Assembly (NCBI RefSeq): GCF_022430525.1
Contig: NZ_CP092519.1
Coordinates: forward strand, 994,454 to 1,058,453
Source of the DNA: Cetobacterium somerae
Lineage (GTDB): Bacteria; Fusobacteriota; Fusobacteriia; Fusobacteriales; Fusobacteriaceae
Length of the DNA stretch: 64,000 nt
Direction: 5' to 3'
Position numbers and translations under genes: made by a program. The number at the start of each line of letters is the position of its first letter. The first letter of the stretch is position 1. Below are positions 34,597-55,172 of the stretch, piece after piece. The notes beneath the pieces were generated by a model, which was not told the DNA's origin, did not search any database, and saw nothing but the letters and a program-made list of their open reading frames with translations.

Positions 34597-36246
34597 CTAT
34601 TTTATATCTTTTATAGCTGCATTTGGAATAAATACTTCATTACCATTAAATACAACTATTCCATTAAATTTAACTTTTTTTCCATCTGTTTCATAGTAAT
34701 TTTTATTTTCATGGAATGTGTACTGCTTTCCATTTTTACTTAGTTTGAATACAGGTTGGAATTTGTTTGTTGAATCTATATTTAACTCTATTCCCATATT
34801 TTTGATTTTTTTACCAGATACAAATAACTCATCTGTTGCTTTATCTAAATCTAAATTCATAGCTTTTGCAATATATAAAGCTATATCAGAATTATTAACA
34901 GTTCCTGTTAATTGATTTGCATAGTTAGATGTATAAACATAAAGAGGTACATCCTCTCCTGTATGCCCATTTGTTGTCCAACCTAAGTGAGCTCTATCAC
35001 TCATAACTTTTCCTAAAATTGTCTCTATCTCAGAGGTTTTTTGAGCTTTTTCAATTGTATTTAACTCTTCATTTGTTAAATCTAATCCTAACATCTCTTT
35101 AGCTAAACTCTTTGCATTAGCTTTATCCTTTGATATTTTTTCAGCTGTTAGAACCTCTGTAAATTTAGCTTTTTTCATATCCTTTGTAAATACATCCACA
35201 GGTAGTTCAGGATAATTATATGACGTTTTTAAATTTCCTATAGATAATCCTCCAGTTCCATGATCTGTTACTGCTACTACTAAAGTATCACTGTTTTTCT
35301 TTGCATAATCTAATGCCACTCCTACAGCTTTATCAAAAGCTGCATACTCAGATGTAATAGCAATTGGATTATTGGCATGTCCAGCCCAATCAACTTTAGA
35401 ACCTTCTACCATTAAGAAGAACCCATCTTTATCTTTTGATAAAAGTTCAATAGCTTTCTCTGTCATCTCTGCTAAAGATGGAGTTGTTGCTTTATCACGA
35501 TCTAAATCATAAGGTATATCTTTTTCAGCAAATAGTCCCCATACAAAATCTTTATTCAGACTTTTCATCTCATCTAAAGTTTGAACAATATTATAACCAT
35601 TAGCTTGTAATGCTTCTAACATATCCTCACCATCAGTACGCTTTTTAGAGTTTGCCTCTGTTGCATTATCCTTTTTAAGATAACTTTTTCCCCCTCCAAA
35701 AACTACATTTAAATTTTGATGAACTTGTTGCTCTCCTATTACAGAATAGTTATTTCTATGTATTGAGTGTGTTGTAAAATCTGCTGGAGTAGCATGTAAA
35801 ACTTCAGAAGTTGCAACAATTCCAACAGCTTTTCCCTCTAACTTAGCTGCTTCTAAAACTGAAGCTGCTGGAGCTAGCTCATCCCCTACCTCTGGAACTC
35901 TTGCTCCATTTAAAGTTGCTGCTTTAGGTTTTACCCCTATTAGTTTATCTTGTGTTTTCCACCCTGTTGCAAGAGCTGTTCCTGCTGGTGCTGAATCTGC
36001 TATAAAAGTATCTGAGTTATAAGTTTTTACCATTCCTGATGCCATCTCATCAATATTTAAACTTTCACCATTATTATATACTGCTCTAGTTAAAGTTGAC
36101 ACTGTTGAACTTGATCCATCTGGAATTAAAAAGATTACATTTTTAGCAAATCCTGGCTTTACATCTTTTAATTGTACCCCTTGTGTTACAGCTGTCATTG
36201 CTAAAAATGCTGTTAGTGTTACTAACTTAATCTTCATTTTACTCAT
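34597..36246 (-). CDS. phoA: Alkaline phosphatase
   Basis: Releases phosphate from phosphomonoesters in the periplasm. The 549-residue protein has a signal peptide (LVTLTAFLAMTAVTQG), FLIPDGSS metal ligand Asp, nucleophile Ser85 in TFIADSAPAGTALATG, FFLMVEGSKVDWAGHAND, AVTDHGTGG and GHTGEDVPLY. It has an extra C-terminal domain. ATG 36246 follows GGGGGAG. A Pho box at 36296-36334 indicates induction by phosphate starvation. Stand-alone gene next to the C-P lyase operon. Confidence 0.93.
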   Translation of the reverse strand: MSKMKIKLVTLTAFLAMTAVTQGVQLKDVKPGFAKNVIFLIPDGSSSTVSTLTRAVYNNGESLNIDEMASGMVKTYNSDTFIADSAPAGTALATGWKTQDKLIGVKPKAATLNGARVPEVGDELAPAASVLEAAKLEGKAVGIVATSEVLHATPADFTTHSIHRNNYSVIGEQQVHQNLNVVFGGGKSYLKKDNATEANSKKRTDGEDMLEALQANGYNIVQTLDEMKSLNKDFVWGLFAEKDIPYDLDRDKATTPSLAEMTEKAIELLSKDKDGFFLMVEGSKVDWAGHANNPIAITSEYAAFDKAVGVALDYAKKNSDTLVVAVTDHGTGGLSIGNLKTSYNYPELPVDVFTKDMKKAKFTEVLTAEKISKDKANAKSLAKEMLGLDLTNEELNTIEKAQKTSEIETILGKVMSDRAHLGWTTNGHTGEDVPLYVYTSNYANQLTGTVNNSDIALYIAKAMNLDLDKATDELFVSGKKIKNMGIELNIDSTNKFQPVFKLSKNGKQYTFHENKNYYETDGKKVKFNGIVVFNGNEVFIPNAAIKDIK

Positions 36247-36295
36247 TTTTACTCCCCCTTAGTTTTTATTTTCTAAAGTAAGTTTAGCATACAGA

Positions 36296-36334
36296 TGTTA
36301 AGCTTTTATTAACTATAAGTAAATTTTTCGTAAA
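36296..36334 (-). promoter_or_regulatory. Pho box of phoA
   Basis: On the minus strand TTTACG, TTTACT, TTAATA, TTAACA at exact 11-bp steps. TTAACA sits where a -35 would be, followed 18 nt later by TTTAGA (36277-36272). Same arrangement as four other boxes in the window. Confidence 0.8.
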
Positions 36335-36339
36335 AATAT

Positions 36340-37143
36340 TTAAACTATTTTTTTCAAACTTTCCTCCTTGCAATAAAAACTTCCAATTTCAATATATTTA
36401 CTATCTATATCTCCATGAAAATCTGTTCCTCCTGTTATCAAAAGATTATTTTTTTTTGCGATTTCTTCCAACAATTCAATATCTCTTTTAGAATGTTTCG
36501 GATGATAAACTTCTATCCCATCTAAACCTTCACAAATTAACTCTGTAATTAATTTTTCATTTTTATATAATGAAGGATGAGCCATTATAGCAATTCCACC
36601 ATCTTGTTTAATAGCTTTGATTACTTTATATACATCTATATATTCCATATCTTTTATCGATGTTTCTTCTTTAAATAATTTTTGATATAATTCTCCATAA
36701 ATTTTTTCAGTATAACCTTGTTTTATTAAATCTATTACTATATGTTGCTTAAATACTCCTGTTTTTCCAGAATATTTTTTTATTCTTTCCCAAGATATAT
36801 CATAACCTTTTTTCTTTATTTCATCAAAATACTTTCTAGATAGTTCTTCTCTTTTTTTAGGAATCTCTTCACAAATTTTTTTAACATTTTCGCCTAGATT
36901 TTTATACCCTAATATATGAACTTTTCGCTCTCTTTTATAATCATATGCTGATATTTCAACTCCAGGTATTACTTCAATCCCATATTTCTTCCCATGTTTT
37001 AAAGCCTCTTCAATTCCTAAAATTGTATCATGATCCGTTATTGAGATATGTGTTACTCCATTTTCTTTAGCTTTTTTCACAATATCTTCTATTGAATAAT
37101 TACAATCTGATATTGATGAATGAATATGTAAATCACCTTTCAT
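36340..37143 (-). CDS. PHP-family cyclic phosphodiesterase of the C-P lyase pathway (PhnPP-like)
   Basis: A 267-residue PHP-domain metallohydrolase: DLHIHSSISDC, SITDHDT, GVEISA, MAHPSLY and TGGTDFHGD supply the trinuclear metal ligands. In a C-P lyase operon lacking phnP, this family hydrolyses 5-phosphoribosyl 1,2-cyclic phosphate (the Eggerthella Elen1235 type, which opens both ester bonds to give ribose 5-phosphate). That would make PhnN dispensable; no phnN is present. Last gene of the operon, 9 nt after the PhnL fusion gene. Role by context; PHP enzymes are diverse. Confidence 0.8.
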   Translation of the reverse strand: MKGDLHIHSSISDCNYSIEDIVKKAKENGVTHISITDHDTILGIEEALKHGKKYGIEVIPGVEISAYDYKRERKVHILGYKNLGENVKKICEEIPKKREELSRKYFDEIKKKGYDISWERIKKYSGKTGVFKQHIVIDLIKQGYTEKIYGELYQKLFKEETSIKDMEYIDVYKVIKAIKQDGGIAIMAHPSLYKNEKLITELICEGLDGIEVYHPKHSKRDIELLEEIAKKNNLLITGGTDFHGDIDSKYIEIGSFYCKEESLKKIV

Positions 37144-37152
37144 TCTCTCTCC

Positions 37153-38460
37153 TTACGCTTCTATCTTTCCTTTTGACATATTATATTCTCTATCTATTAC
37201 GTTTTCCATAAATTCAATATCGTGAAATATTCCCAACATTGTTGTACCTTGATTTTTTAAATCTTCTATTAATTCTTTTACTAATATTTTAGAACCATTA
37301 TCTAAAGATGCTGTTGGTTCATCTAAAATTAAAAGCTTTGGTTTTTTTATCATAGCTTTAGCAATATTTAATCTTAATTTTTCTCCACCACTAAATGTAT
37401 TAGGAAAAGCTTCCCACAACTCTTTTGATATCTTAAAGTGTTCTAACATTTTTAAAGCTTCTTTTTCTGCTAACTCTTTATCTCCACTTATTTCTAACAC
37501 AGCTTCTTTTACAAACTCTTTAGCTGTTACTCTTGGCATAACTTTTAAAAATTGAGAAACATATCCAATTTCATCTTTTCTTATTTTAACCATTTGTCTT
37601 TCACTGGCCTTAGCAATATCTATTGGTCCATAATTGTCTGAAACATATAAGATTTCACCTTTTGTAGGCAAATAATTTCTATAAAGACACTTTAAAATTG
37701 TAGATTTTCCACTTCCACTAGTTCCTGTTATACCTATAAACTCTCCCTCATAAACTGAAAAGTTTATATTTTGACATCCTTTTATCTCAACATCTAAGTT
37801 ATATAAATCAAAATTTTTATATAAACCTTTGATTTCAAGTATAGGTTTTCTAGTTTCGTATTTTCTTATAAATCCTTCTATATTGCCTAAAAATTCATCA
37901 AATCTCTCTTTTATTAACTCATGTGACCAATCCCACCACTTTATACTTAAGAGAGCTTCTGAAATTTTTTCACTAAATCTTCTTTTTATAAACTTTGCTG
38001 GAACCCCTCCAACCACAGTATATGGCTCTACATCTTTTGTGACAATACTCCCACTTGCTATAACTGCTCCACTTCCTATTTTTACTCCTCCCATTATAAT
38101 AGCATTATGCCCTATCCAAACATCATCCCCTATTATAACTTTTTTATCTCTTCTCCACTGAAAAATATCTTCATCATCTTTTTCATCTATTTGAAACTTT
38201 CGCCTTCTATATGTAAAATGATGTTGACTAATTCTATCCATTGGATGATTAGCAGGATTTATCCTAACGCTTTTAGCTATCGAACAAAACTTCCCCATCT
38301 CTGTATGAGCTATGTCACATCCAGATCCAAAATAACTATAATCACCTATTTCACTTTCTAAAAATATACACTCTTTAGCTACTTCATTCCATTTTCCAAA
38401 TTTTGTATCTATTATTTCTGAATTCTCATGAAAAAAACCTTTTTCTGTCAATATATCCAT
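37153..38460 (-). CDS. Hexapeptide acyltransferase::PhnL fusion
   Basis: A 435-residue two-domain protein. Residues about 10-195 form a left-handed beta-helix acyltransferase ([54 protein letters not shown]), the type often next to phn genes; residues about 205-435 are Phn[10 protein letters not shown] Walker [29 protein letters not shown] signature, [10 protein letters not shown]. Elsewhere these are separate genes. ATG 38460 (SD GGAGG) is chosen over the TTG at 38472; it begins 1 nt after the phnM stop. PhnL belongs to the C-P lyase core complex cycle. Confidence 0.88.
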
Positions 38461-38461
38461 T

Positions 38462-39634
38462 TTAGCCTCCAATACTCATTATCATCTTTCCTGATGAAAA
38501 TACATTTTTTACAATAGGTAAACTATCTCTTTCTTCAACTACTAAAATATCTGCTATTTTCCCCTCCTCTAAAGATCCTGTCAAGTTATCTATAGATAAA
38601 GCCTTAGCTGGATTTAAAGATGTCAGTTTAGTCATTTCTTTTATGCAACTTCCACTCTTTTTCATATAAAATATTGAATGTAGTATAGAAGCTGGGTAAT
38701 AATCAGAACATAAAATATCTACTGCTTCACTTTTTATAGCCTCTTCTGCTGAAAGATTTCCGCTATGAGATCCACCTAATAAAATATTTGGTGCTCCCAT
38801 TACTGTATATAGTCCCCTTTCTTTTGCGTATTTTGCAACCTCTAGGGTTATTGGAAACTCACTTATTTTTACATCCCAAGGTTCTATTAAATCTATTTTT
38901 TCAATTAAATCATCATCATGAGATGCCACTGGTATATTATAACTTCTTGCAAACTTAACCATATTTTCAATCTCTTCTATAGACATTTTTTCATTTTCCA
39001 TTGAACCCTTTATAAATTTTAACGCTTCATCCTCTGAACAATCTCTATATGCTGCTATAACCTTTTTATATTTTTCTAAATTTCTAAATTGTCCTTGTCC
39101 TGGTGTATGATCCATTATCGAAAGTTGGTCAACTTTACCATTTTTTATTAAATCTTTAATTTGATCTATTCCATCTCTATTATCTATTTCATACCTTATA
39201 TGCAATTTATGATTTATAAGAGAATCTTTTCTATTTTCACAAATCCATTTTGATAGTTCATCCACACCTTTTGATGTTCTATAATATTTTTTTACTTTTT
39301 CTTCTCCAAATATATTTTTAGAAATAGAAAGAGAATGATACATCGTTGTAATTCCTGAAGATATTAGCTTCTTTTCTAATTCCTTAAAAGCTATATCCAT
39401 AGAAAATATACTCGTTGGTCTTGGTTGAAGCTCTAATTCAACCGCATCACTATGACAATCTACAATTCCTGGTAAAACCCAATTTCCGTTGGCATTTAAA
39501 TTTTTGTAACCACCTTTTAATTGATGTATATCTCCTGAAATTATTTTCTCTATTTTTCCATTTGCTATATAAATAGCACCTTTTACTATTTCATTTGGCG
39601 TTACTATTTTTCCGTTATATATGCATGTTTTCAT
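38462..39634 (-). CDS. phnM: Alpha-D-ribose 1-methylphosphonate 5-triphosphate diphosphatase
   Basis: Amidohydrolase that removes pyrophosphate from the PhnG-H-L product in C-P lyase pathway. The 390-residue protein has [20 protein letters not shown] (metal His and characteristic ERxxxPR-like stretch), [20 protein letters not shown] and [10 protein letters not shown], all PhnM signatures. It lies between phnK and the PhnL fusion; stop and next start are 1 nt apart. Confidence 0.92.
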
Positions 39635-39650
39635 ATTTCTTCCTCCAATT

Positions 39651-40481
39651 TTATAAAAGCGAATGAACTAATTGTTGAGTATAGTAATGTTGTGGATCAT
39701 CCAAAATTTGATCTGTTAATCCCTGTTCTATTATCTCTCCTTGTAACATAACTATTGTTCTGTCTGCCAACATTCTTATTACACCCAAATCATGAGAAAC
39801 AACAATCATAGAAACACCTAATTCTCTTTGAATAGATTTTATTAAATCTAACACTTTTGCTTGTACAGATAAATCTAATCCTGTAGTTACTTCATCTAAC
39901 AATAAAATAGGTGGATTATTTGCTAAAGCCTTTGAAATTTGAACCCTTTGCTGCATTCCACCACTAAAGTTTTTAGGAAATTCTTTCATTCTAGTAAGTG
40001 GAATTTCCACATGTGTCAACAGTTCTTTTGCTCTATCTGTCATATTCTTAACATTTCTATCTCCTGCTGATATAAGTTTCTCCGCTATATTTCCTACACT
40101 TGTGTAATCTAAACGTAGTCCCAACAATGGGTTTTGATATACCATTCCCATTAAATTATTTCTAATATATCTTCTTTTTTGAGAGCTTTCAGAAAAAATA
40201 TTTTCACTTTCATATCCAGCAATTAAACCTTTTCCTCCGTCAACATCTTGATCAAAGTATAAACACTTCATCATAGTTGACTTTCCAGAACCAGATTCAC
40301 CAACCACTCCTAAAATTTCACCGGGATATACCTCAAAAGTCACATCTTTACATCCCCATACAGTACCACATTTTGGACACCTGTTTATTTTGAAACTTTT
40401 TGGATTTTCTAAACAGTAATCACAACCCTCTCCAAATTTTTTTCTTAAATTTTTTATCTCTAAAATTGGTTTTTCTTGCAT
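39651..40481 (-). CDS. phnK: C-P lyase ABC protein PhnK
   Basis: A 276-residue ABC ATPase-like component that docks on the PhnGHIJ core. It has GESGSGKST, FSGGMQQRVQISKALA, LLLDEVTTGLD, and the unusual inserted zinc-ribbon-like CDYCLENPKSFKINRCPKCG after the first strand, as in PhnK. Starts 3 nt after phnJ. Not a transporter ATPase. Confidence 0.92.
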   Translation of the reverse strand: MQEKPILEIKNLRKKFGEGCDYCLENPKSFKINRCPKCGTVWGCKDVTFEVYPGEILGVVGESGSGKSTMMKCLYFDQDVDGGKGLIAGYESENIFSESSQKRRYIRNNLMGMVYQNPLLGLRLDYTSVGNIAEKLISAGDRNVKNMTDRAKELLTHVEIPLTRMKEFPKNFSGGMQQRVQISKALANNPPILLLDEVTTGLDLSVQAKVLDLIKSIQRELGVSMIVVSHDLGVIRMLADRTIVMLQGEIIEQGLTDQILDDPQHYYTQQLVHSLL

Positions 40482-40484
40482 TTT

Positions 40485-41321
40485 TTATACCTCTTTCCTT
40501 CTTTTTTCACAATAACCTGTGTCTGAACACTGATAAAAAATATCTCCTGTATCTTGATTAAAAACTTCATCTAAAAATACATCCGTAGCACCACAAATTT
40601 TACAACTTTTTCCTTTAAAATCTTCAACTTCAAATGGAAAGTCTTCAAATGCTAAAGACACAACTTTCGTATACGGTGGTAAAGCATATATTTTTTTCTC
40701 ACGACCTGCACCAAATAAATATGTTGTTTCACTCATATTCAATTTGTTGTTATCATATCTAGGAATAGGACTAGGACTCATCATATATCTATCATTTACT
40801 AATGTCGGATAATCTGCTCCCTGTGTAACTTCATCAAATTTTACAATATCTTCATAAAGAGATAGCCATGCTCCACTGTATTCTGTATCTGCATGAAGTT
40901 TTTTAGTTTCACTTTCACTTCCTTCTATCTCTCTAAGAGGTTCTGGAATTGGAACTTGTAAAATTAAAATTTGATCATTTCTCATTGGAATTTCTGGAAC
41001 TCTATGTCTTGTTTGAATTAAAGTTGCCTTTTCTGAATCTGTAGTTGTTTTTACATCTGTACACTTTGATATTAACTTTTTTAAATTTATAGCATTTACA
41101 CTTTCATCATAACCTTGATCTATTACTTTTAAAGTATCTTCTTTTCCTATTAAAGCTAGAGTTAGTTGTAATCCACCTGTTCCCCATCCTCTTCCAATTG
41201 GTAATTCTCTCGAAGCAAAAGGAACTTGATACCCTGGAATTGCTAATGCTTTTAATGCGGATCTTCTTATCTCTTTTTTCGAATCTTCATCTAAAAATCC
41301 ATAATTATATTTTACAGCCAT
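40485..41321 (-). CDS. phnJ: C-P lyase radical SAM subunit PhnJ
   Basis: Catalytic subunit that breaks the C-P bond of ribose 1-methylphosphonate 5-phosphate. The 278-residue protein has SRELPIGRGWGTGGLQLTLA and the C-terminal cluster Cys240, Cys243 and Cys265 with the radical-carrying Cys271 in CKICGATDVFL ... YQCSDTGYC, spaced as in E. coli PhnJ (241/244/266/272). Directly follows phnI. Confidence 0.96.
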   Translation of the reverse strand: MAVKYNYGFLDEDSKKEIRRSALKALAIPGYQVPFASRELPIGRGWGTGGLQLTLALIGKEDTLKVIDQGYDESVNAINLKKLISKCTDVKTTTDSEKATLIQTRHRVPEIPMRNDQILILQVPIPEPLREIEGSESETKKLHADTEYSGAWLSLYEDIVKFDEVTQGADYPTLVNDRYMMSPSPIPRYDNNKLNMSETTYLFGAGREKKIYALPPYTKVVSLAFEDFPFEVEDFKGKSCKICGATDVFLDEVFNQDTGDIFYQCSDTGYCEKRRKEV

Positions 41322-42389
41322 TTATCTTTCTCCTTTTTTACTGCTTCTTATTCTATCTAGTTTTGATTGGAATGTTACATAATGTGGCAACTTTAAATGA
41401 GATACAAATCCAGATGACTCTACACTATCTATATGATATAAAACAAATTCTTCATTTTGAGCAGGAGTATCTCCTGGTATATCTAAATTTCTATCTAATA
41501 CTGACATAGCTATAGCTTTTGTCTCATTTTGCCCCATTACTAAACCGTAACCTAATTTAAATTCAATCTCTTCACCTTCAGATTCTGGAAATATATTTTC
41601 TACTTCTGTTAACATCATCTCTCCAATATAATAACTTTCTTCTTCATCTAATGGATAAGGTATATCAACTTCTACATTTCCCACTCTAAGTTCTCCTACT
41701 GTTGGATGAATATTTCCACCAAACCCTCTCAAACTACTATATCCAATTGCTGCAACTGCTCCACTTTCACCTCTTGATAAAATTTGAAGTCTTGCTGATC
41801 TTGGTAAAGGTAATGAAATTTTATCTCTTGTTACATCAAAGGGTTCTTCATTTTCATGAACCTCTGTTTTTATTAACCCTTCTGCTCTCAATAAATTAGA
41901 TATTTTTGGATAATTTATATCTTCATCTATATAATTTTCTTCAACTTCTTTTTTTAAATTCTCTATCCAACTTTGACAATTTTCTTCTTGAATTAAATCA
42001 AAATCTAAAAGTCTATGAGAATAATCATATGTAGGTCCTAATAGTTGCCCTCCTGGAATATCTTTAAAAGCAGCTGATATTCTTCTAATAACTTTCATTT
42101 TTTCCGTATCCACTACATTTGAGTAGTATTTTCTCGGAAGAGTAGATCTAAAAGCTCTCATTAAAAATACACTTTCCTCTATATTTCCCTCTCCTTGTTT
42201 TATAGATAGTGCAGCTAATTCTGGTGAATATAATCCACCCTCACTCATAACTCTATCTACTAATCCTCTCATTTGATTTTTTATCATATCTACAGTTAAA
42301 TCACTTCCATTTTTTACTCTATAATATTTTATAAGATTATTTGAATGTTCTATCGCTTCTTTTCCACCTGTTACTGCAACATAAGCCAT
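41322..42389 (-). CDS. phnI: C-P lyase core subunit PhnI
   Basis: Nucleosidase-type subunit that couples ATP to phosphonate at the ribose in the PhnGHI(L) reaction. The 355-residue protein begins MAYVAVTGGKEAIEHSNNLI and includes GLVDRVMSEGGLYSPELAA and SSLRGFGGNIHPTVGELRVG, typical of PhnI. ATG 42389 overlaps the phnH stop as TAATG, so translation is coupled; the open frame upstream is inside phnH. Confidence 0.95.
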   Translation of the reverse strand: MAYVAVTGGKEAIEHSNNLIKYYRVKNGSDLTVDMIKNQMRGLVDRVMSEGGLYSPELAALSIKQGEGNIEESVFLMRAFRSTLPRKYYSNVVDTEKMKVIRRISAAFKDIPGGQLLGPTYDYSHRLLDFDLIQEENCQSWIENLKKEVEENYIDEDINYPKISNLLRAEGLIKTEVHENEEPFDVTRDKISLPLPRSARLQILSRGESGAVAAIGYSSLRGFGGNIHPTVGELRVGNVEVDIPYPLDEEESYYIGEMMLTEVENIFPESEGEEIEFKLGYGLVMGQNETKAIAMSVLDRNLDIPGDTPAQNEEFVLYHIDSVESSGFVSHLKLPHYVTFQSKLDRIRSSKKGER

Positions 42390-42985
42390 TATCTTTTCAC
42401 CTCTAATTTTGTAGTTCTTGGTAAACAACCGATATTTCCAAATTTATCGACTAATATAAAGTCTATTCCCAAAGGAAATTCTGAATTTACTAAATCTCTT
42501 TTTTCAAATATTTTTTTACTTAACCCATCTATTGAAAAACTCGTTTGATTTTTTATTCCAGGACCTTTTAGAATCAAATTTTCTTCATTTGTTATTTTAT
42601 CCACGCTTATGATTAAAGTAGCTCCTAAATGGGGATCTTCTAATGTTCCTATAGATGCATTTTCAATTACTTCTAAAATTTTCTCTTCTCCATCTTTTTT
42701 TGAATCAACAAGTATGAATTCTGCTTTTTCTAAAACTTTTTCTTGAGCAAAAGTATGTAATTTTACATATTTTTTCTCATCTTCATTCTCTATATAAAAC
42801 TTACTTTCTATATTTAGTAAAGTATATGCTAGTCCCATCATCTCTTTAGATAAACTTGAATAGACCTCTAAATTTTGAATCTCATTCTCTATATTGTTTA
42901 TTGTTCCAGGTTTTGACATACTATCTAGTAACTTTCTATATATTTTTTGAATATCATGAACAAAATCAAATTTTTCTATTTTCAT
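42389..42985 (-). CDS. phnH: C-P lyase core subunit PhnH
   Basis: A 198-residue PLP-transferase-fold structural subunit of C-P lyase. FDFVHDIQKIYRKLLDSMSK-PG at the start (RxxMSxPG) and KGPGIKNQTSFSI plus NSEFPLGIDFILVDKFGNIG are family signatures. Starts 2 nt after phnG and overlaps phnI. Confidence 0.92.
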   Translation of the reverse strand: MKIEKFDFVHDIQKIYRKLLDSMSKPGTINNIENEIQNLEVYSSLSKEMMGLAYTLLNIESKFYIENEDEKKYVKLHTFAQEKVLEKAEFILVDSKKDGEEKILEVIENASIGTLEDPHLGATLIISVDKITNEENLILKGPGIKNQTSFSIDGLSKKIFEKRDLVNSEFPLGIDFILVDKFGNIGCLPRTTKLEVKR

Positions 42986-42987
42986 TC

Positions 42988-43410
42988 TTACACTCCCATT
43001 GTATTAAATTTTACTTTTGAACCTTCAACCATAGATTTTTCTTCTATATATATATCTTTTATAGTTTTTTCCCAATTTTCAATCACTTTTAAAAGTTCTC
43101 CTTTATCAACTTTTTCACTATTAAAAGCTGCATCTATAACTCCCATTAAATATGCTCTTTCTGAGTCATCACCTTGAACTATTCCCATACCTAAAATTCC
43201 ATCTAAGTGTACAGAACACTCTGTTATTAATAGCTCTCCTATATAAAATTTTTCCTTATAAACACCATCCTTTACTTTGACCATAGTCAATCCCATCTCT
43301 GGTTCTTTTACTGTACTTACTCTATATAAGTTTTCTAATTTTTCTACCTCTTTTTTTAAGTTCTCTATATTTGTATGAGCTAAAATATAAGATAATCTTC
43401 TTTTTTTCAT
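42988..43410 (-). CDS. phnG: C-P lyase core subunit PhnG
   Basis: A 140-residue subunit of the C-P lyase core. EPEMGLTMVKVKDGVYKEKF and FYIGELLITECSVHLDGILG GxG-type stretch match PhnG. First gene of an eight-gene operon (phnGHIJKM, fusion, PHP). ATG 43410 follows TAGGAGGAAAT. Regulated by a Pho box at 43577-43615 and a leader terminator at 43435-43504 with the shared 23-nt motif. Confidence 0.9.
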   Translation of the reverse strand: MKKRRLSYILAHTNIENLKKEVEKLENLYRVSTVKEPEMGLTMVKVKDGVYKEKFYIGELLITECSVHLDGILGMGIVQGDDSERAYLMGVIDAAFNSEKVDKGELLKVIENWEKTIKDIYIEEKSMVEGSKVKFNTMGV

Positions 43411-43434
43411 ATTTCCTCCTATTTTTTAATATAA

Positions 43435-43504
43435 AAAACCCTAAGCAATTGAAAAATCCATCTATAATTTCTATAGAATTAGATTTTTCAACACTTAGGG
43501 TTTT
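43435..43504 (-). terminator. Leader terminator of the phnG operon
   Basis: On the minus strand AAAACCCTAAG pairs with CTTAGGGTTTT around a second long hairpin (GTTGAAAAATC/GATTTTTCAA), then T residues, 25 nt before phnG. It lies inside the untranslated leader, so full expression needs antitermination. Confidence 0.85.
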
Positions 43505-43520
43505 CTCAAGGTCTCAACCT
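43498..43520 (-). promoter_or_regulatory. Shared phn leader motif, copy 1
   Basis: Minus-strand AGGTTGAG, AC, CTTGAGAAAACCC; 21 of 23 positions equal copy 2 at 47713-47735. GGTT can pair with AACC of the same motif, and here its 3' part is also the 5' arm of the terminator, so the two structures exclude each other. Confidence 0.8.
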
Positions 43521-43576
43521 CATAGTATTAAAGTTATTTATTGGTTTATTTTTATAATGCTATTATAGCAACTCTT

Positions 43577-43615
43577 TGTTAAATCAATATTTATTTTTTG
43601 TAAAAGAAATGTAAA
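43577..43615 (-). promoter_or_regulatory. Pho box of the phnG operon
   Basis: Minus-strand TTTACA, TTTACA, TAAATA, TTAACA at exact 11-bp steps, immediately after the stop of the GlpP-like gene. Confidence 0.78.
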
Positions 43616-43617
43616 TT

Positions 43618-44157
43618 TTACCAAAGTTCTATTTTACTAGTTACAACTGTTTGAGCTCCACAATTTAAAGCTTCATCTATTTCCACTTCTTCTGTTATTA
43701 GTCCTGTTGACCAAATTGGAATATTTGGATTCTCTTCCTTTATTATCTTTATAACTTTTGTCATAAGTCCAGGTCTCACCTCTATTATATCTGGATTTAT
43801 TGTTTTTATATTTTTTAAAGTTGTTCCAAATGATTTTGTATCAAAAACAAAAGCTGTATATACTGTTTTCAATCCTATTTTTTTAGCTTTTGTTAAAACC
43901 TTGGTTTTATTTGAAGTTATTCCAAATACTCCAATACTTTTTAAAAACTCCATAGTGGCATCATCATCCTCTTTTAGCCCTTCTATTTCATTTATCTTTA
44001 CAAAAACTTCTTTTTTCATTTCTTTTAATTCATCAACTCTATCTTTTAAAGATATAAAATCACCCATTTCAAAAACTACAAATTGGCTTTTACTTTCTAA
44101 AGCTTTTTCATAATATATCTCATTTACTATAACTGGTGTTGTTCTATTAAATTTCAA
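43618..44157 (-). CDS. GlpP-like antiterminator in the phosphonate transport operon
   Basis: A 179-residue TIM-barrel-like protein: VFVKINEIEGLKEDDDATME, GITSNKTKVLTKAKKIGLKT, then IIEVRPGLMTKVIKII and IWSTGLITEEVEIDEALNCG-AQTVVTSKIELW. These are the ordered signatures of GlpP, the glycerol-3-phosphate-responsive RNA antiterminator. It starts at TTG 44157 (AGGAGG 5 nt upstream) and is the last gene of phnDCEE, with no glycerol genes nearby. A role on the two phn leaders is inferred. A genuine glycerol regulator placed here by chance is the alternative. Confidence 0.8.
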   Translation of the reverse strand: MKFNRTTPVIVNEIYYEKALESKSQFVVFEMGDFISLKDRVDELKEMKKEVFVKINEIEGLKEDDDATMEFLKSIGVFGITSNKTKVLTKAKKIGLKTVYTAFVFDTKSFGTTLKNIKTINPDIIEVRPGLMTKVIKIIKEENPNIPIWSTGLITEEVEIDEALNCGAQTVVTSKIELW

Positions 44158-44171
44158 TTTTTCCTCCTAAC

Positions 44172-44999
44172 TTAATCTATCTTAGCTTTTCTTTTAAGTC
44201 TATCTGCTAGATATTGTAAAACATACATTGTTATAAATATAACTCCTATTGTAAAGAAAATTTCTGTAAAATTATATGTACTAACTGCCTTTTTCAAATC
44301 TGATCCCAATGAATTTTTTACTGCTGCAAATGGTCCCATTATAACTGCTACTCCAAAATTTATTTCTAACCTAAAAGCAGACCAAGCTACTATTTTATTA
44401 ATACTCGATGGTATTACTACTGCGTGTATTAAATTTAACCAACTTCCTCCAGAGGCTTTTATTCCTTCTAAAGTTCCTTCTTCAACCTCTTCAAAAGTTT
44501 CACCTAAAACTTTAACAAAGAACACAGTACTATGAAAAGTCATTCCTATAACAGCACTTGTCCCTGTCATTCCGTAAATTGATATACACAGTAACACTAT
44601 TAAAAATGTTGGGACAGCCCTTACTGCTGCACTACTTCCCCTAATAACATCACTTAACCATTTGTTAGATAAATTTCTAGCTGAAAATAATGCTAAAACT
44701 CCTCCAATTAAGAGTCCTAATATTGTAGATAAAAAAGCAAGACCAAAAGTTGATAAAAATGATGTAATCATTGTACTAAAATATTTTTTAAAATTGATAT
44801 TAAATCTTAAAAAACTTTCAAACATTTGCCCCACTCTGTAATAATGTGAATCAAATATTGGATTATGTTTTTCTACTGTCAAACCAAGTTTTGTAAAAGA
44901 ATAAATTGTTATTATTCCTAAAAAAAGGATTACTCCTTGTAATACCCAGTATTGTAAGTCGTAATTTTTTATTTGAATTTTTCCATTTTTAATCTTCAT
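44172..44999 (-). CDS. phnE: Phosphonate ABC transporter permease PhnE (second)
   Basis: A 275-residue inner-membrane permease with about six helices and the EAA-type loop GTLEGIKASGGSWLNLIHAVV-like segment that contacts the ATPase. It overlaps the first permease gene by 11 nt and precedes the GlpP-like gene by 14 nt. Together with PhnC and PhnD it imports phosphonates or phosphate esters. Confidence 0.9.
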   Translation of the reverse strand: MKIKNGKIQIKNYDLQYWVLQGVILFLGIITIYSFTKLGLTVEKHNPIFDSHYYRVGQMFESFLRFNINFKKYFSTMITSFLSTFGLAFLSTILGLLIGGVLALFSARNLSNKWLSDVIRGSSAAVRAVPTFLIVLLCISIYGMTGTSAVIGMTFHSTVFFVKVLGETFEEVEEGTLEGIKASGGSWLNLIHAVVIPSSINKIVAWSAFRLEINFGVAVIMGPFAAVKNSLGSDLKKAVSTYNFTEIFFTIGVIFITMYVLQYLADRLKRKAKID

Positions 45000-45792
45000 T
45001 TAAAATTATCCCCCTTAATCTATTACTAAAAAAATCCCATAAAATAAGAGTTATACCTATAACTATAATAAGACCTAAAGTTGTATTAAAATCTCTCTTA
45101 AATCCTCTGTGAAAGGAGATTAAATATCCTATTCCTGCTCCTGTTAAATAACCTATTAATGATGAACTTCTTATATTTGTTTCTATACAAAACAAAGTCC
45201 AACTAACAAGTTGAGCTATTGTATCTGGAATAACCGCATTTTTTATAATTACAAATTTATCTGCTCCTGCAGATTCTAAAGCTTCTATACTACTACTAGA
45301 AGTTTCATCAATAGTTTCTGTAAAAGCTCTAATTAAAAATCCTAATGATATTAAAAATATTATTAAAAATGCTAAGAAAAATCCTCCCATATAAAATATC
45401 ATTCCCAATAAAAGTTGCCAAACATAAATAGGAACATTTCTACACACAAGCCCTAAACCTGTAAATATTTTTCCTAAAGTTTTATTCAGAGCAATTGATT
45501 TACTTGTACATAAACTCATAAAAAATGAGAAAACTGCCGCTAAAACAGTGCTTCCAATACTCACTGCTATTGTTATCCATAACTCTCTTAAAGTACTTTT
45601 AAAGTCAATAAACTTCGGTGGAAAATATTGTTTTAAAAATCCCCCTATTTTTCCTGTACCTTCTATTACTTTAATAATTTGAAAATCTGATAAAATCATA
45701 AAAACTAAAGATATTATTAAAGTAATCAAAATAATTCCTATCATTTTCTTTCTCTTTCTTTTAAATATACAGTTATCTATTACTAATTTCAT
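44989..45792 (-). CDS. phnE: Phosphonate ABC transporter permease PhnE (first)
   Basis: A 267-residue permease with helices such as MIGIILITLIISLVFMILSD and SIGSTVLAAVFSFFMSLC, and the ATPase-contact loop SSSIEALESAGADKFVIIKN. ATG 45792 follows GGGGAG; the frame is open seven codons further upstream. Two non-identical PhnE genes in one operon are common and probably form a heterodimer. Confidence 0.9.
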   Translation of the reverse strand: MKLVIDNCIFKRKRKKMIGIILITLIISLVFMILSDFQIIKVIEGTGKIGGFLKQYFPPKFIDFKSTLRELWITIAVSIGSTVLAAVFSFFMSLCTSKSIALNKTLGKIFTGLGLVCRNVPIYVWQLLLGMIFYMGGFFLAFLIIFLISLGFLIRAFTETIDETSSSSIEALESAGADKFVIIKNAVIPDTIAQLVSWTLFCIETNIRSSSLIGYLTGAGIGYLISFHRGFKRDFNTTLGLIIVIGITLILWDFFSNRLRGIILNED

Positions 45793-45802
45793 CAATCTCC
45801 CC

Positions 45803-46609
45803 TTAAGCAACAACTTTATTTGAAGTTATAGAAACTTCTTCATCTACTATTAGCTCACCATGTTTAGCTCCATAAATTTCATGAACTATTTCTGGAGTTA
45901 ATTTACTTGGAGGACCATTAAATAATATTTTCCCATTTTTTAGTCCTATTATCCTATCTGAGTATTTTAATGCTACATCCACTTGATGCAAATTTGCAAC
46001 GCATGTTATCCCCTTCTTTACAGATATATCTTTTAATATATCCATAATTACCTTAGCTGATTGTGGATCTAAAGAAGCTATTGGTTCATCACAAAGAATT
46101 AAATGGGGATTTTGAATAAGAGCTCTTGCTATTCCAACTCTTTGTTTTTGTCCTCCAGATAAATTTCCACATTTTTTATATTCATGTCCTTTTAATCCCA
46201 ACTCTTTTAAAAGTTCAAAAGCTTCCTTTTTATCACACTCACTATAAATACCTAAAAGGCCTTTTATTGAACTCATTTGACCTAATTTACCATGTAAAAC
46301 ATTTTCTATAACTGTAAGTTGTTTTACAATGTTATAGTGTTGAAATATCATTCCTATTTTTGTTCTAATTTTTTTTATCTCTTTTTTATTAGCTTTTACC
46401 AAACTTTCATTATTAAATAAAATCTCTCCAGAAGATGGAGAAATCATTTTATTTAAACATCTTAAAAATGTAGATTTTCCAGCTCCAGAAGAACCAATAA
46501 CTGATATTAATTCCCCCTCTTTAAATTCTAAACTTATGTCTTCTAATACATTTTTCTTTCCATCATAAGTTTTAAAAAGATTTTTTATTTCTAATATAGT
46601 TTTTTTCAT
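45803..46609 (-). CDS. phnC: Phosphonate ABC transporter ATPase PhnC
   Basis: A 268-residue ATPase: GSSGAGKST Walker A, FQHYNIVKQLTVIENVLHGK, LSGGQKQRVGIARAL signature, LILCDEPIASLD. The second in-frame ATG (46609) is chosen, 6 nt after AGGGAG; the first overlaps that site. Lies between phnD and phnE. Confidence 0.92.
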   Translation of the reverse strand: MKKTILEIKNLFKTYDGKKNVLEDISLEFKEGELISVIGSSGAGKSTFLRCLNKMISPSSGEILFNNESLVKANKKEIKKIRTKIGMIFQHYNIVKQLTVIENVLHGKLGQMSSIKGLLGIYSECDKKEAFELLKELGLKGHEYKKCGNLSGGQKQRVGIARALIQNPHLILCDEPIASLDPQSAKVIMDILKDISVKKGITCVANLHQVDVALKYSDRIIGLKNGKILFNGPPSKLTPEIVHEIYGAKHGELIVDEEVSITSNKVVA

Positions 46610-46639
46610 CTCCATCTCCCTTTATAAATTTTATATTTT

Positions 46640-47644
46640 TTACATTTGTCTCAATATTTCATAAAATCCATCTTGAACTAATAAGAATTTCTCATTTTTT
46701 CCTTTTAACAGAGTTCCTTTTGAAGTCCAAAGTTGTTTTCCTACCTCAGAAGCTTTGTCATAGCTCAAATTATTAAAATGAACTTTTATTTTCTCAAGAT
46801 TATCTTTTCCTAAACTATCTACATTAGCCCAAACAGGTCCATTTGGTACAATTCTTTTTGCTAAAATATAGAAATCTTCAATTCCTTTAGCATCTACTCC
46901 ATCTACAAAATATCCCTCACAAAATGCTCCTGCATCCACTCCACCATTATAGATAAGATTTATATTTCCTTGATGGTCTCCAGTTGGAGAAAATGTTATA
47001 TCCATAATATTAACTTTTTGTGGGTTCGCAAAATCATCTTTATTTTTTATCTCTTTTGTACCCTCTGGTCCAAACGTATTATTTAAAATAGCTCTTGGAA
47101 CTTTAAATCCTGACGACGATGATGATGAGACAAAAGAAAATCTTTTATCTTTTAACATTTTTATTCTTTCAATTTCATCTTTTCCACCTGGAGTTAAATC
47201 ATCTCCAATTCCTGATTTTTTTATATCTTTATATAAATCTGAGTCTTTCTTTGTTGCTATCCATCCTTGATATCCCGCCTTTTCTAAAACTCCATCTGGT
47301 CCATATGTAAAGATAACTTCTATATTTTCTTTCCCTTTAGAATCATCCTTTGCCATTATATATTGATTTCCTCCACTAAAAGCTAAATCCATTTCCCCAG
47401 CTAACATCGCATCTATTAGAGCTTCATATGAATCTGTAGTCCTAATATCAACCTTTTTACCTATTGCAGCTTCTATTTCTGCAGCTAATCCATCTCTAAA
47501 CCCTTCGAATTCTGCACTTCCTTCTGTTGGTAAAAATCCTAGAACTATTTTCTCCTCTTTTTTTCCGAAAAAAGCTGAACTTTCTAAACTCATTCCCATA
47601 AAAAATAAACTTCCTAATGCCACTGTTAATAACTTTTTTTTCAT
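46640..47644 (-). CDS. phnD: Phosphonate substrate-binding protein PhnD
   Basis: A 334-residue periplasmic binding protein with signal peptide (LLTVALGSLFFMGMSLESSA). KIVLGFLPTEGSAEFEGFRD, FVSSSSSSGFKVPRAI and GAFCEGYFVDGVDAKG carry the phosphonate-binding Ser/Tyr pattern of PhnD. First gene of phnD-C-E-E-glpP-like. Controlled by a Pho box (47779-47817) and a leader with terminator. Confidence 0.93.
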   Translation of the reverse strand: MKKKLLTVALGSLFFMGMSLESSAFFGKKEEKIVLGFLPTEGSAEFEGFRDGLAAEIEAAIGKKVDIRTTDSYEALIDAMLAGEMDLAFSGGNQYIMAKDDSKGKENIEVIFTYGPDGVLEKAGYQGWIATKKDSDLYKDIKKSGIGDDLTPGGKDEIERIKMLKDKRFSFVSSSSSSGFKVPRAILNNTFGPEGTKEIKNKDDFANPQKVNIMDITFSPTGDHQGNINLIYNGGVDAGAFCEGYFVDGVDAKGIEDFYILAKRIVPNGPVWANVDSLGKDNLEKIKVHFNNLSYDKASEVGKQLWTSKGTLLKGKNEKFLLVQDGFYEILRQM

Positions 47645-47673
47645 TTAATTCCCTCCTAAGTTTGTTTAAAAAA

Positions 47674-47712
47674 AAAGTATTAAAAAATATCCTAGATATT
47701 TTTTAATACTTT
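47674..47712 (-). terminator. Leader terminator of the phnD operon
   Basis: A perfect 18-bp stem (47674-47691 with 47695-47712) followed by nine T residues on the minus strand, 20 nt before phnD's ribosome-binding site. Directly preceded by the shared leader motif. Confidence 0.88.
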
Positions 47713-47735
47713 GGGTTTTCTCAAGAACTCAACCT
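47713..47735 (-). promoter_or_regulatory. Shared phn leader motif, copy 2
   Basis: Minus-strand AGGTTGAG, TT, CTTGAGAAAACCC, immediately 5' of the terminator stem; 21 of 23 positions equal the motif before phnG, although the flanking terminators differ in sequence. Confidence 0.8.
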
Positions 47736-47778
47736 ATTCATATTATATTTAATATTTATATATAAAATACCACAGTGA

Positions 47779-47817
47779 TGTTAAACAAATATAAAAATTT
47801 GGTAAAAGTTTTGTTAA
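47779..47817 (-). promoter_or_regulatory. Pho box of the phnD operon
   Basis: Minus-strand TTAACA, TTTACC, TTTATA, TTAACA at exact 11-bp steps; the first repeat overlaps the stop codon of the upstream ATPase gene. TATAAA follows 18 nt after the last TTAACA. Confidence 0.82.
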
Positions 47818-51291: not shown

Positions 51292-52335
51292 CTACTTTCT
51301 ATTTACTAAAACTTCCTCTTGCCAAACTCTTCCTAAATTTTTTGAAGTTTTGTCCCAAGCATCATGATTTTCAATAGCTCTTGCATTCTTATACTGCTCA
51401 TCTGGAATCATCCTTTTCTTTATATCCTCTGGTAGATTAATTTTCCTAATTGGTCTTGCATTTCCCTTAGCTAAATTTATCTGACCATCATCACTAAATA
51501 TATACTCTCTTGTTAATTTAGCTGCATTTGGATTCTTTGCCCATTTATTAATTATTGTTGTATATCCGCTTATAAGAGAACCATCTGAAGGAATTAAAAC
51601 TTCAAATCTCTCTTTATCAATTGAATCTCTGTAGCTTAAACCATTAAAATCCCAGATTAATCCAACTTCAACTTCACCTTTTTCTAAGTTTTGAATATTT
51701 GGTGAAGCTGCTGAAACTCTGCCCTCTTTTGCTAAATTAGCAAAATACTTTATTGCTGGTTCTATATTATTTTCATTTCCACCTAATGCATAAGCTGCCG
51801 CTAAAACGGCACTTGAAGCTTGAGCTGCTGTTCCTACATCTCCTGGGCTTACTTTAAATTTGCTATTTTTTAAAGCCTCCCAAGATCTAGGTATATCCTT
51901 TTCTGGAATTTTATCTTTATCTACTATAAAAGCTATTGTTCCTGTATAAGCTAACATCCAATGTCCATTTTTATCTTTAGCCCACTCTGGTACCTCTTCC
52001 CAATAACTTGTTTTGTATGGTTGAGTAACCCCTTGTTTCAGAGCTATATTTGCAAATCCTGCCCCTATATCACCAATATCTGCTGTGGCATTTTTTCCCT
52101 CATTTTTAAATTTTGCAATTTCCTGAGCACTACTCATATCAGTATCACTATGTTTTATATTATATTTTTCTTTTATTTGACTCCAAGTATCTTTCCAATT
52201 GGCCCAATTATCAGGCATTCCAACAGATAATACTTCTCCTTCTTTTTGTGCTTTCTCTTGAATCTCTTGTAAAGTTTCTCCATAAGTTAAAACAGTTGAT
52301 AAAAGTGTTGCCAATAAAACAAATTTTTTCATCAT
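51292..52335 (-). CDS. ABC substrate-binding protein (iron/AEP/polyamine type 1 fold)
   Basis: A 347-residue periplasmic binding protein with a Sec signal peptide (FVLLATLLSTVLTYG). EGEVLSVGMPDNWANWKDTW, DIGDIGAGFANIALKQGVTQ and VEVGLIWDFNGLSYRDSI match the family that includes 2-aminoethylphosphonate- and iron-binding proteins. First gene of a five-gene operon with a Pho box at 52381-52419. Ligand probably an organophosphate or phosphonate by context. Confidence 0.85.
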   Translation of the reverse strand: MMKKFVLLATLLSTVLTYGETLQEIQEKAQKEGEVLSVGMPDNWANWKDTWSQIKEKYNIKHSDTDMSSAQEIAKFKNEGKNATADIGDIGAGFANIALKQGVTQPYKTSYWEEVPEWAKDKNGHWMLAYTGTIAFIVDKDKIPEKDIPRSWEALKNSKFKVSPGDVGTAAQASSAVLAAAYALGGNENNIEPAIKYFANLAKEGRVSAASPNIQNLEKGEVEVGLIWDFNGLSYRDSIDKERFEVLIPSDGSLISGYTTIINKWAKNPNAAKLTREYIFSDDGQINLAKGNARPIRKINLPEDIKKRMIPDEQYKNARAIENHDAWDKTSKNLGRVWQEEVLVNRK

Positions 52336-52380
52336 TTCTCCTCCCTAAAACTTTAATTCTAACTTACTTTAACACCTTCT

Positions 52381-52419
52381 TGTTAATATAAAATAAATTA
52401 TCAGTAAATTAATTGTAAA
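52381..52419 (-). promoter_or_regulatory. Pho box of the second transporter operon
   Basis: Minus-strand TTTACA, TTTACT, TTTATT, TTAACA at exact 11-bp steps; TAGAAT follows 19 nt after the last repeat. Confidence 0.82.
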
Positions 52420-52452
52420 AACTATTTTTAAAGTTCAAATAAAATTTTAAAC

Positions 52453-52484
52453 AAAAAAGTGCCAGAAACATTTTCTGACACTTC
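52453..52484 (-). terminator. Terminator of the alcohol dehydrogenase gene
   Basis: AAGTG-CAGAA pairs with TTCTG-CACTT (one mismatch); minus-strand T run follows. Confidence 0.82.
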
Positions 52485-52507
52485 ACTTAAAATATTCATA
52501 TTATTTT

Positions 52508-53656
52508 TTACATTGCACTTCTATATATCTCAATAATCTCCTCTAAAGTAGCTTGCTTAGGATTTGTAAATCCACATGCATCTTTTAAAGCATTTGTTGC
52601 TAAAATAGTAAAGTCTTCCTCTTTAGCTCCTAACTCTTTTATTCCTTTTGGAATTCCAATATCATTTGATAATTTTACAATCTCTTTTATTGCTAAATCA
52701 GCTGAATTATTTTCATTTAAAATATGAGGATTTACTCCTAACAATATTGCAACTTTTCTTAATTTCTCTTTTGACACCTCAGCGTTATATCTAACTACAT
52801 GAGGTAATAAAATTGCATTACATACACCATGAGGTAAATCATAGAATCCTCCTAACTGGTGAGCCATTGCATGAACATATCCTAAAGAAGCATTGTTAAA
52901 AGCCATTCCTGCTAAATACTCTGCATAAGCCATATTATCTCTTGCTTTAATATCTTTTCCATTAAATACTGCATCTCTTAAGTTTTTAGAAATCAATTCA
53001 ATAGCTTTTTCAGCACATGCATCTGTTACTGGAGTTGCAATTGTTGAAACATAAGCTTCTATTGCATGTGTTAAAGCATCCATACCTGTTGCTGCTGTTA
53101 AACTCTTTGGCATATCTAACATTAACTCTGGATCATTCACTGCTATAATTGGAGTTACATTTTTATCTACTATAGCCATTTTTACATGTCTATCTTCATC
53201 TGTTATTATACAAAATCTTGTCATTTCCGAAGCTGTTCCAGCAGTTGTGTTTATTGACATTAAAGGAAGTTGAGGGTGTGCAGATCTGTCTACCCCTTCA
53301 TAATCTTTTATATCTCCACCATTAGCAGCTACTAAAGCTATCCCTTTTGCTGCATCATGAGGTGACCCTCCACCAAAAGATATTACAAAATCACATCCAT
53401 TATCTTTTAACATCTTTAATCCATCATTAACATTTGTCACTGTTGGATTTGGTTTTGTTTCATCAAAGATAACATACTCTATTTTATTCTCATCTAATAC
53501 ATTTGTTAATTTTTTAACTAAACCAATATTTACTAATATTTTATCTGTTACTATTAAAGACTTTTTTAAACCTCTCGATTTAATTTCATTTCCTAGATTT
53601 TTAATACATCCCTCTCCCATATAAGAAATTGATGGCATGAAAAAAGCATATGACAT
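52508..53656 (-). CDS. Iron-containing alcohol dehydrogenase
   Basis: A 382-residue NAD(P)-dependent group III dehydrogenase: [17 protein letters not shown] nucleotide loop, [16 protein letters not shown], and metal ligands in [35 protein letters not shown]. It resembles 1,3-propanediol and butanol dehydrogenases. No Pho box is visible before it; placement between phosphorus operons may be incidental, or it may reduce an aldehyde from phosphonate or glycerol breakdown. ATG 53656 follows TAGGAGG. Confidence 0.9.
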
Positions 53657-53771
53657 AATAGCCTCCTAATAAATGTATTTTTTAGTGTACACCAATAATA
53701 ACTCTTTTTGTACTATAAATCAATACTTTTTTTATTTTTATTATTTTGAATTAGTATTCAAGCTAATTTTT

Positions 53772-55121
53772 TCACTCTACCCATATTTTATCTTTTACTT
53801 GAAACCACTTTTCTAAAGCTGGTTTTTTCAAACTATTATATAGTGGATTTATAACTACCATGGGTTCATCTTTTTCTGATACACCCTCAATTCTTAGATA
53901 CTCTCCCTCTTTAAGTTCATTAAAAATATTAACCTCTTGTCCTACAACCATATTTATAACTTTTCCATTTTTAATAATTCTCCAAATTAAAGTTTGTGAA
54001 GAAAGTATCTTTATACTAATTTCACCTTTGACCTCATCTCCAGGATAGATAATTTGTCCATTATTCTCCATTCTAAGTTTTATCTCTCCAATTCTTGAAA
54101 CATACATTCTTCCTTTCTTCATATTTTCTAAAATATTTTTACTTTCATACTTATCTAGTCTTATATAATTTAAAGGATCTCCTAAACTTTCTCCATGATT
54201 ATCACTTCCACCTACTGCAAATATTTTATGTCCATCATTCCATAGCATATCCAATGCTTCTAATGCTTTTCTATCATAATATGGATTATTCCCTTCTCTT
54301 GTTGGAGAGTTTATTACCTCTATAAAATCCAAATCTTTTAAATCAATATTATAAAACAATCCTAAAAACATTCTTGAAGTATTATGAAAGGGATGATTTA
54401 ATGATACATACCCACCTTGCTTTTTAACCTCTTTAAATATTTTTGCCAATGATATCTCTCTAGTATCATCTTCATCTATGTGATTATAATAATCTATTAA
54501 CTTTTTTAAACCAAAAAGATTAAAGTGTCCTAAGTTATCTAATGTCAGCTCTGTTGAAGGTATAACGGGGATATCTATATCTGGATATTTTGTTAAAACA
54601 CTGTTATGCTCTGTTGGAAATATAAAATCTATCTCTTTTTTTATTATTTCTTTTTTTATGTCTATAAGAGACAGCCTGCCATCAGATATATTTGTATGAT
54701 TATGGAGTTCTCCTGCATACCACTCTTTAGTATCCAAATAAGTTTCTTTTAAAGTTATCTTCTTCATATTTTCTTTTTTTATAAGATTTCCATTTTCAAT
54801 TTTTATCTCTAGCTCAAACTCATCACCTACACCATAGTTCTTTAATAGTTTTAGTTTCCATTCACCTTCTGGTAACTCCCCTGGAATACAACAATTTGAA
54901 GTACTTTCCCAGTGTGTTGTTAAATAATATTTTTTCTTATTAGTCTTAAAAGATGTTAGTATTCTAGTTCTTCCTTCACTATCTTCCAATGATATGATTA
55001 CGTGTTCAAAAGGCCCTTTATTTAAGTTTAAAGATATTCTATTGATATCATTTGTTACCATAAATTTATACTCTAATTTTTCAATTTTTTTATTATTATT
55101 AAAACTTCCCTTAAATATCAT
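53772..55121 (-). CDS. CehA/McbA-type PHP-domain metallohydrolase
   Basis: A 449-residue protein. The N-terminal 125 residues form a beta-rich domain; the PHP domain begins WYAGELHNHTNISDG, continues FIFPTEHNSV, IPSTELTL, SLNHPFHNT and ends VGGSDNHGESLGDP, giving the metal ligands. A C-terminal beta domain follows. No signal peptide. CehA relatives hydrolyse carbamates or phosphodiesters; its own Pho box makes a phosphoester substrate likely. Monocistronic. Function is inferred from regulation. Confidence 0.8.
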   Translation of the reverse strand: MIFKGSFNNNKKIEKLEYKFMVTNDINRISLNLNKGPFEHVIISLEDSEGRTRILTSFKTNKKKYYLTTHWESTSNCCIPGELPEGEWKLKLLKNYGVGDEFELEIKIENGNLIKKENMKKITLKETYLDTKEWYAGELHNHTNISDGRLSLIDIKKEIIKKEIDFIFPTEHNSVLTKYPDIDIPVIPSTELTLDNLGHFNLFGLKKLIDYYNHIDEDDTREISLAKIFKEVKKQGGYVSLNHPFHNTSRMFLGLFYNIDLKDLDFIEVINSPTREGNNPYYDRKALEALDMLWNDGHKIFAVGGSDNHGESLGDPLNYIRLDKYESKNILENMKKGRMYVSRIGEIKLRMENNGQIIYPGDEVKGEISIKILSSQTLIWRIIKNGKVINMVVGQEVNIFNELKEGEYLRIEGVSEKDEPMVVINPLYNSLKKPALEKWFQVKDKIWVE

Positions 55122-55172
55122 CTTTAATCTCCTCCCTAATATTATGTAAATATATCCATTTTATCAAAAAGA

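Follow-up and report, generated by a model that had tools for sequence, protein, structure and literature searches.

A GlpP paralogue as the probable antiterminator of two phosphonate operons in Cetobacterium somerae

The stretch of DNA analyzed here (the window, 64,000 nucleotides of Cetobacterium somerae contig NZ_CP092519.1) harbors two phosphonate operons on its minus strand, the transporter operon phnDCEE and the carbon-phosphorus (C-P) lyase operon phnGHIJKM, the PhnJ of which shares 65% identity with Mesobacillus PhnJ. The last gene of phnDCEE, glpP2, begins 14 nt past phnE2 and reaches to 3 nt before the phnG Pho box, and its product scored 141 bits against the Pfam family PF04309 (G3P_antiterm; cut-off 27), in keeping with the GlpP-like assignment made in an earlier note on this DNA. 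Each operon is preceded by a leader containing a short conserved hairpin and an intrinsic terminator. This arrangement is best explained by GlpP2 acting on both operons through GlpP-type transcription antitermination, an explanation considered quite probable. The coordinates of all the features are collected in Table 1.

The earlier note had described one 23-nt motif, identical at 21 of 23 positions, directly before the terminator of each phn leader. Pattern searches agreed with this: AGGTTGAGNNCTTGAGAAAACCC matched exactly twice in the window, once in the phnG leader and once in the phnD leader, with a terminator directly 3' of each copy, as against zero matches expected from 100 shuffles. 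When the pattern was relaxed to allow up to three mismatches, the 2.97 Mb genome yielded no other convincing copy, and a slightly shorter pattern with at most one mismatch was found in none of 97 other Fusobacteriota. Both copies take the form GGTT-GAGNNCTTGAGAA-AACC, with a GAG spacing of 8 in each. The terminators themselves differ in sequence in their loops and lower stems, as had also been reported. The leader hairpins with their U-tracts are strong (fold z scores of about -6 to -7 for phnG and about -3 to -4 for phnD); a simple terminator scan of the window listed neither of them, their stems or loops probably lying beyond the limits of the scan.

Folding of the two leaders independently yielded the inner stem and an outer helix in identical columns, the outer helix comprising 9 bp in phnG and 6 bp in phnD when the upstream context was included. 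In both leaders, the 3' strand of the outer helix lies within the 5' arm of the terminator; hence, the antiterminator and the terminator are predicted to be mutually exclusive. Such exclusive folds had been proposed for the phnG leader, and folding with upstream context extends them to the phnD leader. The predicted exclusion operates through the inner stem together with the outer helix in phnG and through the outer helix in phnD. Among the six outer pairs common to both leaders, three differ between them and pairing is kept in all three, which lends moderate support to the predicted helix.

In Bacillus subtilis, GlpP together with glycerol 3-phosphate disrupts the leader terminators of the glp genes (PMC9604022). 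A common GlpP target element emerged when 28 canonical leaders of glp genes in Fusobacteriota, Bacilli, and Clostridia were compared; it is located downstream of glpP or before glpF, glpK, or glpD and ahead of a terminator. In this element, a 4-9-bp stem closes a loop containing two GAG triplets 7-9 nt apart (GAG-N4-6-GAG). The stem sequence is wholly different between species with pairing retained (e.g., TAGCT/AGCTA, AATCTT/AAGATT, TTGTGGT/ACCACAA, and TTTGATAC/GTATCAAA), and its 3' arm is mostly inside the terminator 5' arm. As these stems were chosen for complementarity, their pairing is not independent evidence, and the evidence resides in placement and background rate. The canonical leader hairpin was seen at loci L007, L011, L017, L023, L040, L148, L199, L204, and others, and Rfam holds no such family. 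An ordinary glpP-glpF-glpK-glpD operon is present elsewhere in the C. somerae genome (L007), and the leaders of its glpF (TAGCT-AGAGATATTAGAGA-AGCTA) and glpD (TTAGC-AATAGAGATGAAGAGA-GCTAA) carry the element ahead of terminators.

The phn leaders were compared with this element using the sum of a position score and a stem score, trained on the 28 canonical hairpins only, with the phn leaders left out; the score replaced a covariance model because MAFFT misaligned the short hairpins. The phnG leader scored 11.1 and the phnD leader 7.3, each with a terminator. Sites scoring at least at the phnD level with a terminator numbered five in 40 shuffled windows and zero in 80 C-P lyase loci (1.45 Mb, both strands). 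The sole other match in the window (6067-6091) corresponded to the 3' end of an open reading frame with its own terminator and was rejected. Both phn leaders show a stem closing GAG-N4-6-GAG just before an intrinsic terminator, and they would be unlikely to match the canonical GlpP element by chance. A motif and a terminator with exclusive folds could also belong to a small-molecule riboswitch or attenuator working without a protein. Such a device is very improbable here, as the conserved part measures only ∼23 nt, the inner 4-bp stem is of marginal stability (-2.1 kcal/mol in phnD), and the leaders match the GlpP architecture with a GlpP paralogue adjoining. No family of Rfam 15 matched the phn leaders at gathering score, which excluded a known riboswitch identity.

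The window was scanned for a Bacillus-like Pho box of four TTHACA-like hexamers with an 11-bp period (maximum score 24). Both phn promoters scored 22 of 24, and ten shuffled windows peaked at 20. At both of them, a -10-like hexamer follows 9 nt after the end of the last repeat. Five sites in the window scored 21-22, all on the minus strand, and only those of phnG and phnD are accompanied by the hairpin. It was also observed that a cluster of Pho genes with Pho-box-like repeats surrounds the phn operons (window 34597-36334 and 51292-55211). According to PMC10574752, no transcriptional control of C-P lyase other than Pho control is known, and with such strong Pho-box repeats Pho control might by itself drive the phn genes, the motif being a recently duplicated terminator or leader segment, a messenger-RNA stability element, or a chance likeness. 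The leaders are indeed identical at 45 of 65 columns, without gaps, over a stretch extending beyond the motif. However, the motif was kept at 21 of 23 positions despite divergence of the lower arms of the terminators, pairing persists where the outer helices differ, and the fit to the canonical GlpP element is hard to ascribe to chance; this explanation was judged quite unlikely. The suggestion of the earlier note that low phosphate and an inducer act as two layers is plausible in view of the Pho-box repeats before both operons, and it may fairly be inferred that the two would act in series, low phosphate for initiation and the inducer for readthrough.

The AlphaFold2 model of GlpP2, for which the input alignment was built without plasmid-record rows, showed a triosephosphate isomerase (TIM) barrel with a predicted local distance difference test score of 94.5. 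The closest structures in the PDB were 3kts (template modeling score 0.91), followed by 1vkf, both solved structures of GlpP. The earlier note had proposed a phylogeny against GlpP proteins linked to glpFKD, and in a tree of 100 GlpP proteins GlpP2 formed the longest branch (2.24), joined to an unresolved fork that lies away from the main groups of Fusobacteriota and from the genome's own GlpP, its exact position being uncertain. GlpP2 has no link to glpF, glpK, or glpD, and the host has its separate glpP-glpFKD operon. Of the 33 columns conserved at ≥80% in 94 other GlpP members (five other long-branch proteins left out), 12 are changed in GlpP2, the most of any row, including His to K54, Asp to N56, Thr to N83, Arg to T101, Pro to T133, Gly to T151, and Ser to V172. 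The Arg replaced by T101 is conserved in all, and the Arg and His/Asp positions are conserved in 96-100% of the 94 proteins. In the model, the changed residues are located at or near the C-terminal ends of the barrel strands, where TIM barrels bind their ligands. Residues G60, G79, F103, D106, E126, P129-G130, G152, G167-A168, and W179 are retained. These features fit, without proving, a working regulator with a different, probably phosphorylated, ligand. Judged by its sequence, GlpP2 is not an ordinary GlpP.

The canonical GlpP is encoded in the same genome and the phn hairpins share the architecture of its leaders, so that it might itself read them, glycerol 3-phosphate inducing both glp and phn genes; GlpP2, which evolves fast, would then be a decaying or unrelated duplicate. 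This is unlikely, as the glpP2 gene is intact and located in the operon under regulation, and the protein retains much of the core of the family and gives a good fold in the model. Moreover, the loops of both phn leaders (TTGAG-NNC-TTGAG) deviate identically from the genome's own glp loops, AGAGATATTAGAG and AGAGATGAAGAG, as a separate specificity predicts. GlpP2, rather than canonical GlpP, is the likely reader of the phn leaders.

In the mechanism favored here, antitermination by GlpP2, low phosphate would start phn transcription through PhoP-like activation, and the leader RNA would fold by default into the intrinsic terminator. Inducer-bound GlpP2 would bind the loop with the two GAG triplets (GGUU-GAGNNCUUGAGAA-AACC) and stabilize the antiterminator of inner and outer helix, which would occupy the terminator 5' arm and let RNA polymerase read into phnDCEE-glpP2 and phnGHIJKM. 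The loop would be self-reinforcing because glpP2 sits in one of the operons it controls. The most likely inducer would be a phosphorylated metabolite of the phosphonate pathway rather than glycerol 3-phosphate; a ligand other than glycerol 3-phosphate would fit because family-invariant pocket residues are changed. The earlier note had held that the paralogue antiterminates both phn leaders in response to a phosphonate-derived or phosphoester metabolite. The antitermination part is strengthened by the shared canonical hairpin architecture and by the place of the paralogue in the phnD operon; the pocket changes do not name the ligand. As far as anatomy read from the DNA can tell, the proposed mechanism is well supported. 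The earlier note knew of no described phosphonate antitermination of this kind, and a search of the open-access literature for antitermination of phosphonate genes, whether of GlpP type or another, likewise found nothing relevant.

Several observations weigh against this mechanism. The phn loops carry TTGAG twice, and canonical loops are mostly AGAG or GGAG. The outer-helix differences between the leaders are one-sided (G-U) changes without compensatory pairs, the outer helix of phnD alone is no better than shuffles, and the inner stem of phnD abuts the terminator without overlapping it. The outer helix was also considered as a general feature of GlpP leaders, which comparison across the canonical leaders did not support. 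The long branch of GlpP2 could reflect loss of function, and the phn-linked pair of GlpP2 and motif is known from one genome.

With regard to distribution, this genome alone among 98 Fusobacteriota carries C-P lyase (PhnG) and GlpP2, which suggests horizontal gain; the GC content of the locus equals that of the host. No GlpP gene was found within 10 kb of PhnJ in 80 loci from GTDB genomes, some of the contigs being shorter than that. In 391 Clostridia, no phn-linked GlpP was present among the best matches, and the 20 contexts viewed, out of 22, were glycerol genes or unrelated loci. A GlpP2-like protein above ∼43% identity was absent from 399 Bacilli (a comparison of identity only), the nearest GlpP proteins of the sampled Clostridia and Bacilli reaching at most ∼43% over part of the length. 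A further 398 Bacillota gave no match at a strict cut-off, in a search without a positive control.

Table 1. Features of the phn locus and its leaders (window positions).
Feature	Position	Strand	Remarks
phnG, first gene of the C-P lyase operon	42988..43410	-	PF06754 and TIGR03293 above cut-off
phnH, phnI, phnJ, phnK, phnM	38462..42985	-	phnH PF05845; phnM NCBIfam NF011990; phnI and phnK by position and sequence
GlpP2, GlpP-like antiterminator paralogue	43618..44157	-	PF04309; last gene of the phnDCEE operon; TTG start, AGGAGG site
phnC, phnE1, phnE2, transporter genes	44172..46615	-	phnC TIGR02315 above cut-off; both permeases BPD_transp_1
phnD-type substrate-binding protein, first gene of the transporter operon	46640..47644	-	PF12974
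23-nt motif, phnG leader	43498..43520	-	inner stem GGTT/AACC, loop GAGACCTTGAGAA; putative GlpP2 binding hairpin
23-nt motif, phnD leader	47713..47735	-	inner stem GGTT/AACC, loop GAGTTCTTGAGAA
Extended antiterminator (predicted), phnG leader	43487..43532	-	outer helix UUUAAUACU/AGUGUUGAA and inner GGUU/AACC; -10.1 kcal/mol
Extended antiterminator (predicted), phnD leader	47704..47745	-	outer helix UAAUAU/GUAUUA and inner GGUU/AACC; -4.7 kcal/mol; geometry as in phnG
Intrinsic terminator, phnG leader	43433..43506	-	5' arm includes motif AAAACCC and the outer-helix 3' strand
Intrinsic terminator, phnD leader	47674..47712	-	18-bp stem, U-tract
Pho-box-like 11-bp direct repeats before phnG	43577..43615	-	TTTACA, TTTACA, TAAATA, TTAACA; 9 nt to TATAAT (43567-43562)
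Pho-box-like 11-bp repeats before phnD	47779..47817	-	TTAACA, TTTACC, TTTATA, TTAACA; 9 nt to TATTTT
Other top Pho-box sites	36334, 52419, 55211	-	alkaline phosphatase (phoA); PhnS-like transporter operon; CehA/McbA phosphoesterase gene

Two further genes were noted in the window. A PhnL-type ABC ATPase with a fused N-terminal hexapeptide (left-handed helix) transferase domain is encoded at window 37153-38472, and a PHP-domain protein at window 36340-37143, the end of the phn operon, is a possible substitute for PhnP in cyclic phosphate hydrolysis.

GlpP paralogues adjoining non-glycerol operons, with the same leader hairpin and terminator, were also found in other genomes (L161 7199-7229, L219 7790-7812, and L222 8146-8170). 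The ygc-type operons (L161 6378-8830, L163, and L221), which encode an FGGY kinase, a flavin adenine dinucleotide-linked oxidase, and electron transfer flavoprotein subunits, have their own GlpP paralogue and a hairpin leader. In the two Paenibacillus genomes (L219 and L222), a second GlpP gene lies by genes for an ABC substrate-binding protein, a HAD hydrolase, and a calcineurin-like phosphoesterase, and the GlpP-type hairpin precedes the transporter operon. At a Brevibacillus locus (L223), an operon for an oligopeptide-type ABC transporter comes after a GlpP gene, and hairpin leaders (7629-7650 and 10154-10175) precede both the transporter and a gene upstream.

The phn locus offers a concrete second layer of control, inducer-dependent antitermination in series with Pho boxes, and suggests that phosphonate breakdown would need a specific inducer besides phosphate shortage. 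A further result of the comparison is a defined target element for GlpP, one that Rfam lacks and with which GlpP regulons and non-glycerol paralogues of GlpP can be located. A wider reading has about an even chance of being right: a GlpP paralogue whose RNA target and ligand pocket have both been re-tuned would respond to a phosphonate or C-P lyase intermediate and act as antiterminator for the entire phosphonate regulon, C-P lyase would thereby have its first inducer-specific control, atop phosphate control, and GlpP-type hairpins would form an unrecognized modular class of RNA switches serving several non-glycerol operons.

Several known systems resemble this arrangement. The Pho-box-like repeats at both promoters recall Pho-regulon and PhnF control of phn operons, in which low-phosphate control is usual (PMC10574752); no antiterminator has been described there, and an RNA switch that depends on a protein would bring in control by an inducer once transcription has been initiated. 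The closest counterpart is B. subtilis GlpP, acting on the glpD, glpFK, and glpT leaders, which shares the protein family (PF04309) and fold, a conditional intrinsic terminator in the leader and, as in the canonical leaders of relatives, a target hairpin that precedes the terminator and has a GAG-N4-6-GAG loop. The phn system differs from it in having phosphonate uptake and C-P lyase genes as targets instead of glycerol genes. It also has TTGAG twice in the loop, an additional outer helix, altered residues in the pocket, and Pho-box promoters. The ygc-type and Paenibacillus paralogues are similar in that a GlpP gene stands beside a non-glycerol operon with the same leader hairpin and terminator, but their substrates are different, their sequences are closer to canonical GlpP, and no phn genes lie nearby. 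In the ANTAR, BglG/SacY, and NasR antiterminators, the protein stabilizes an alternative RNA fold that excludes the terminator; GlpP2 differs from these in its unrelated fold, a TIM barrel, and in its putative RNA target, a single hairpin with two GAG triplets.

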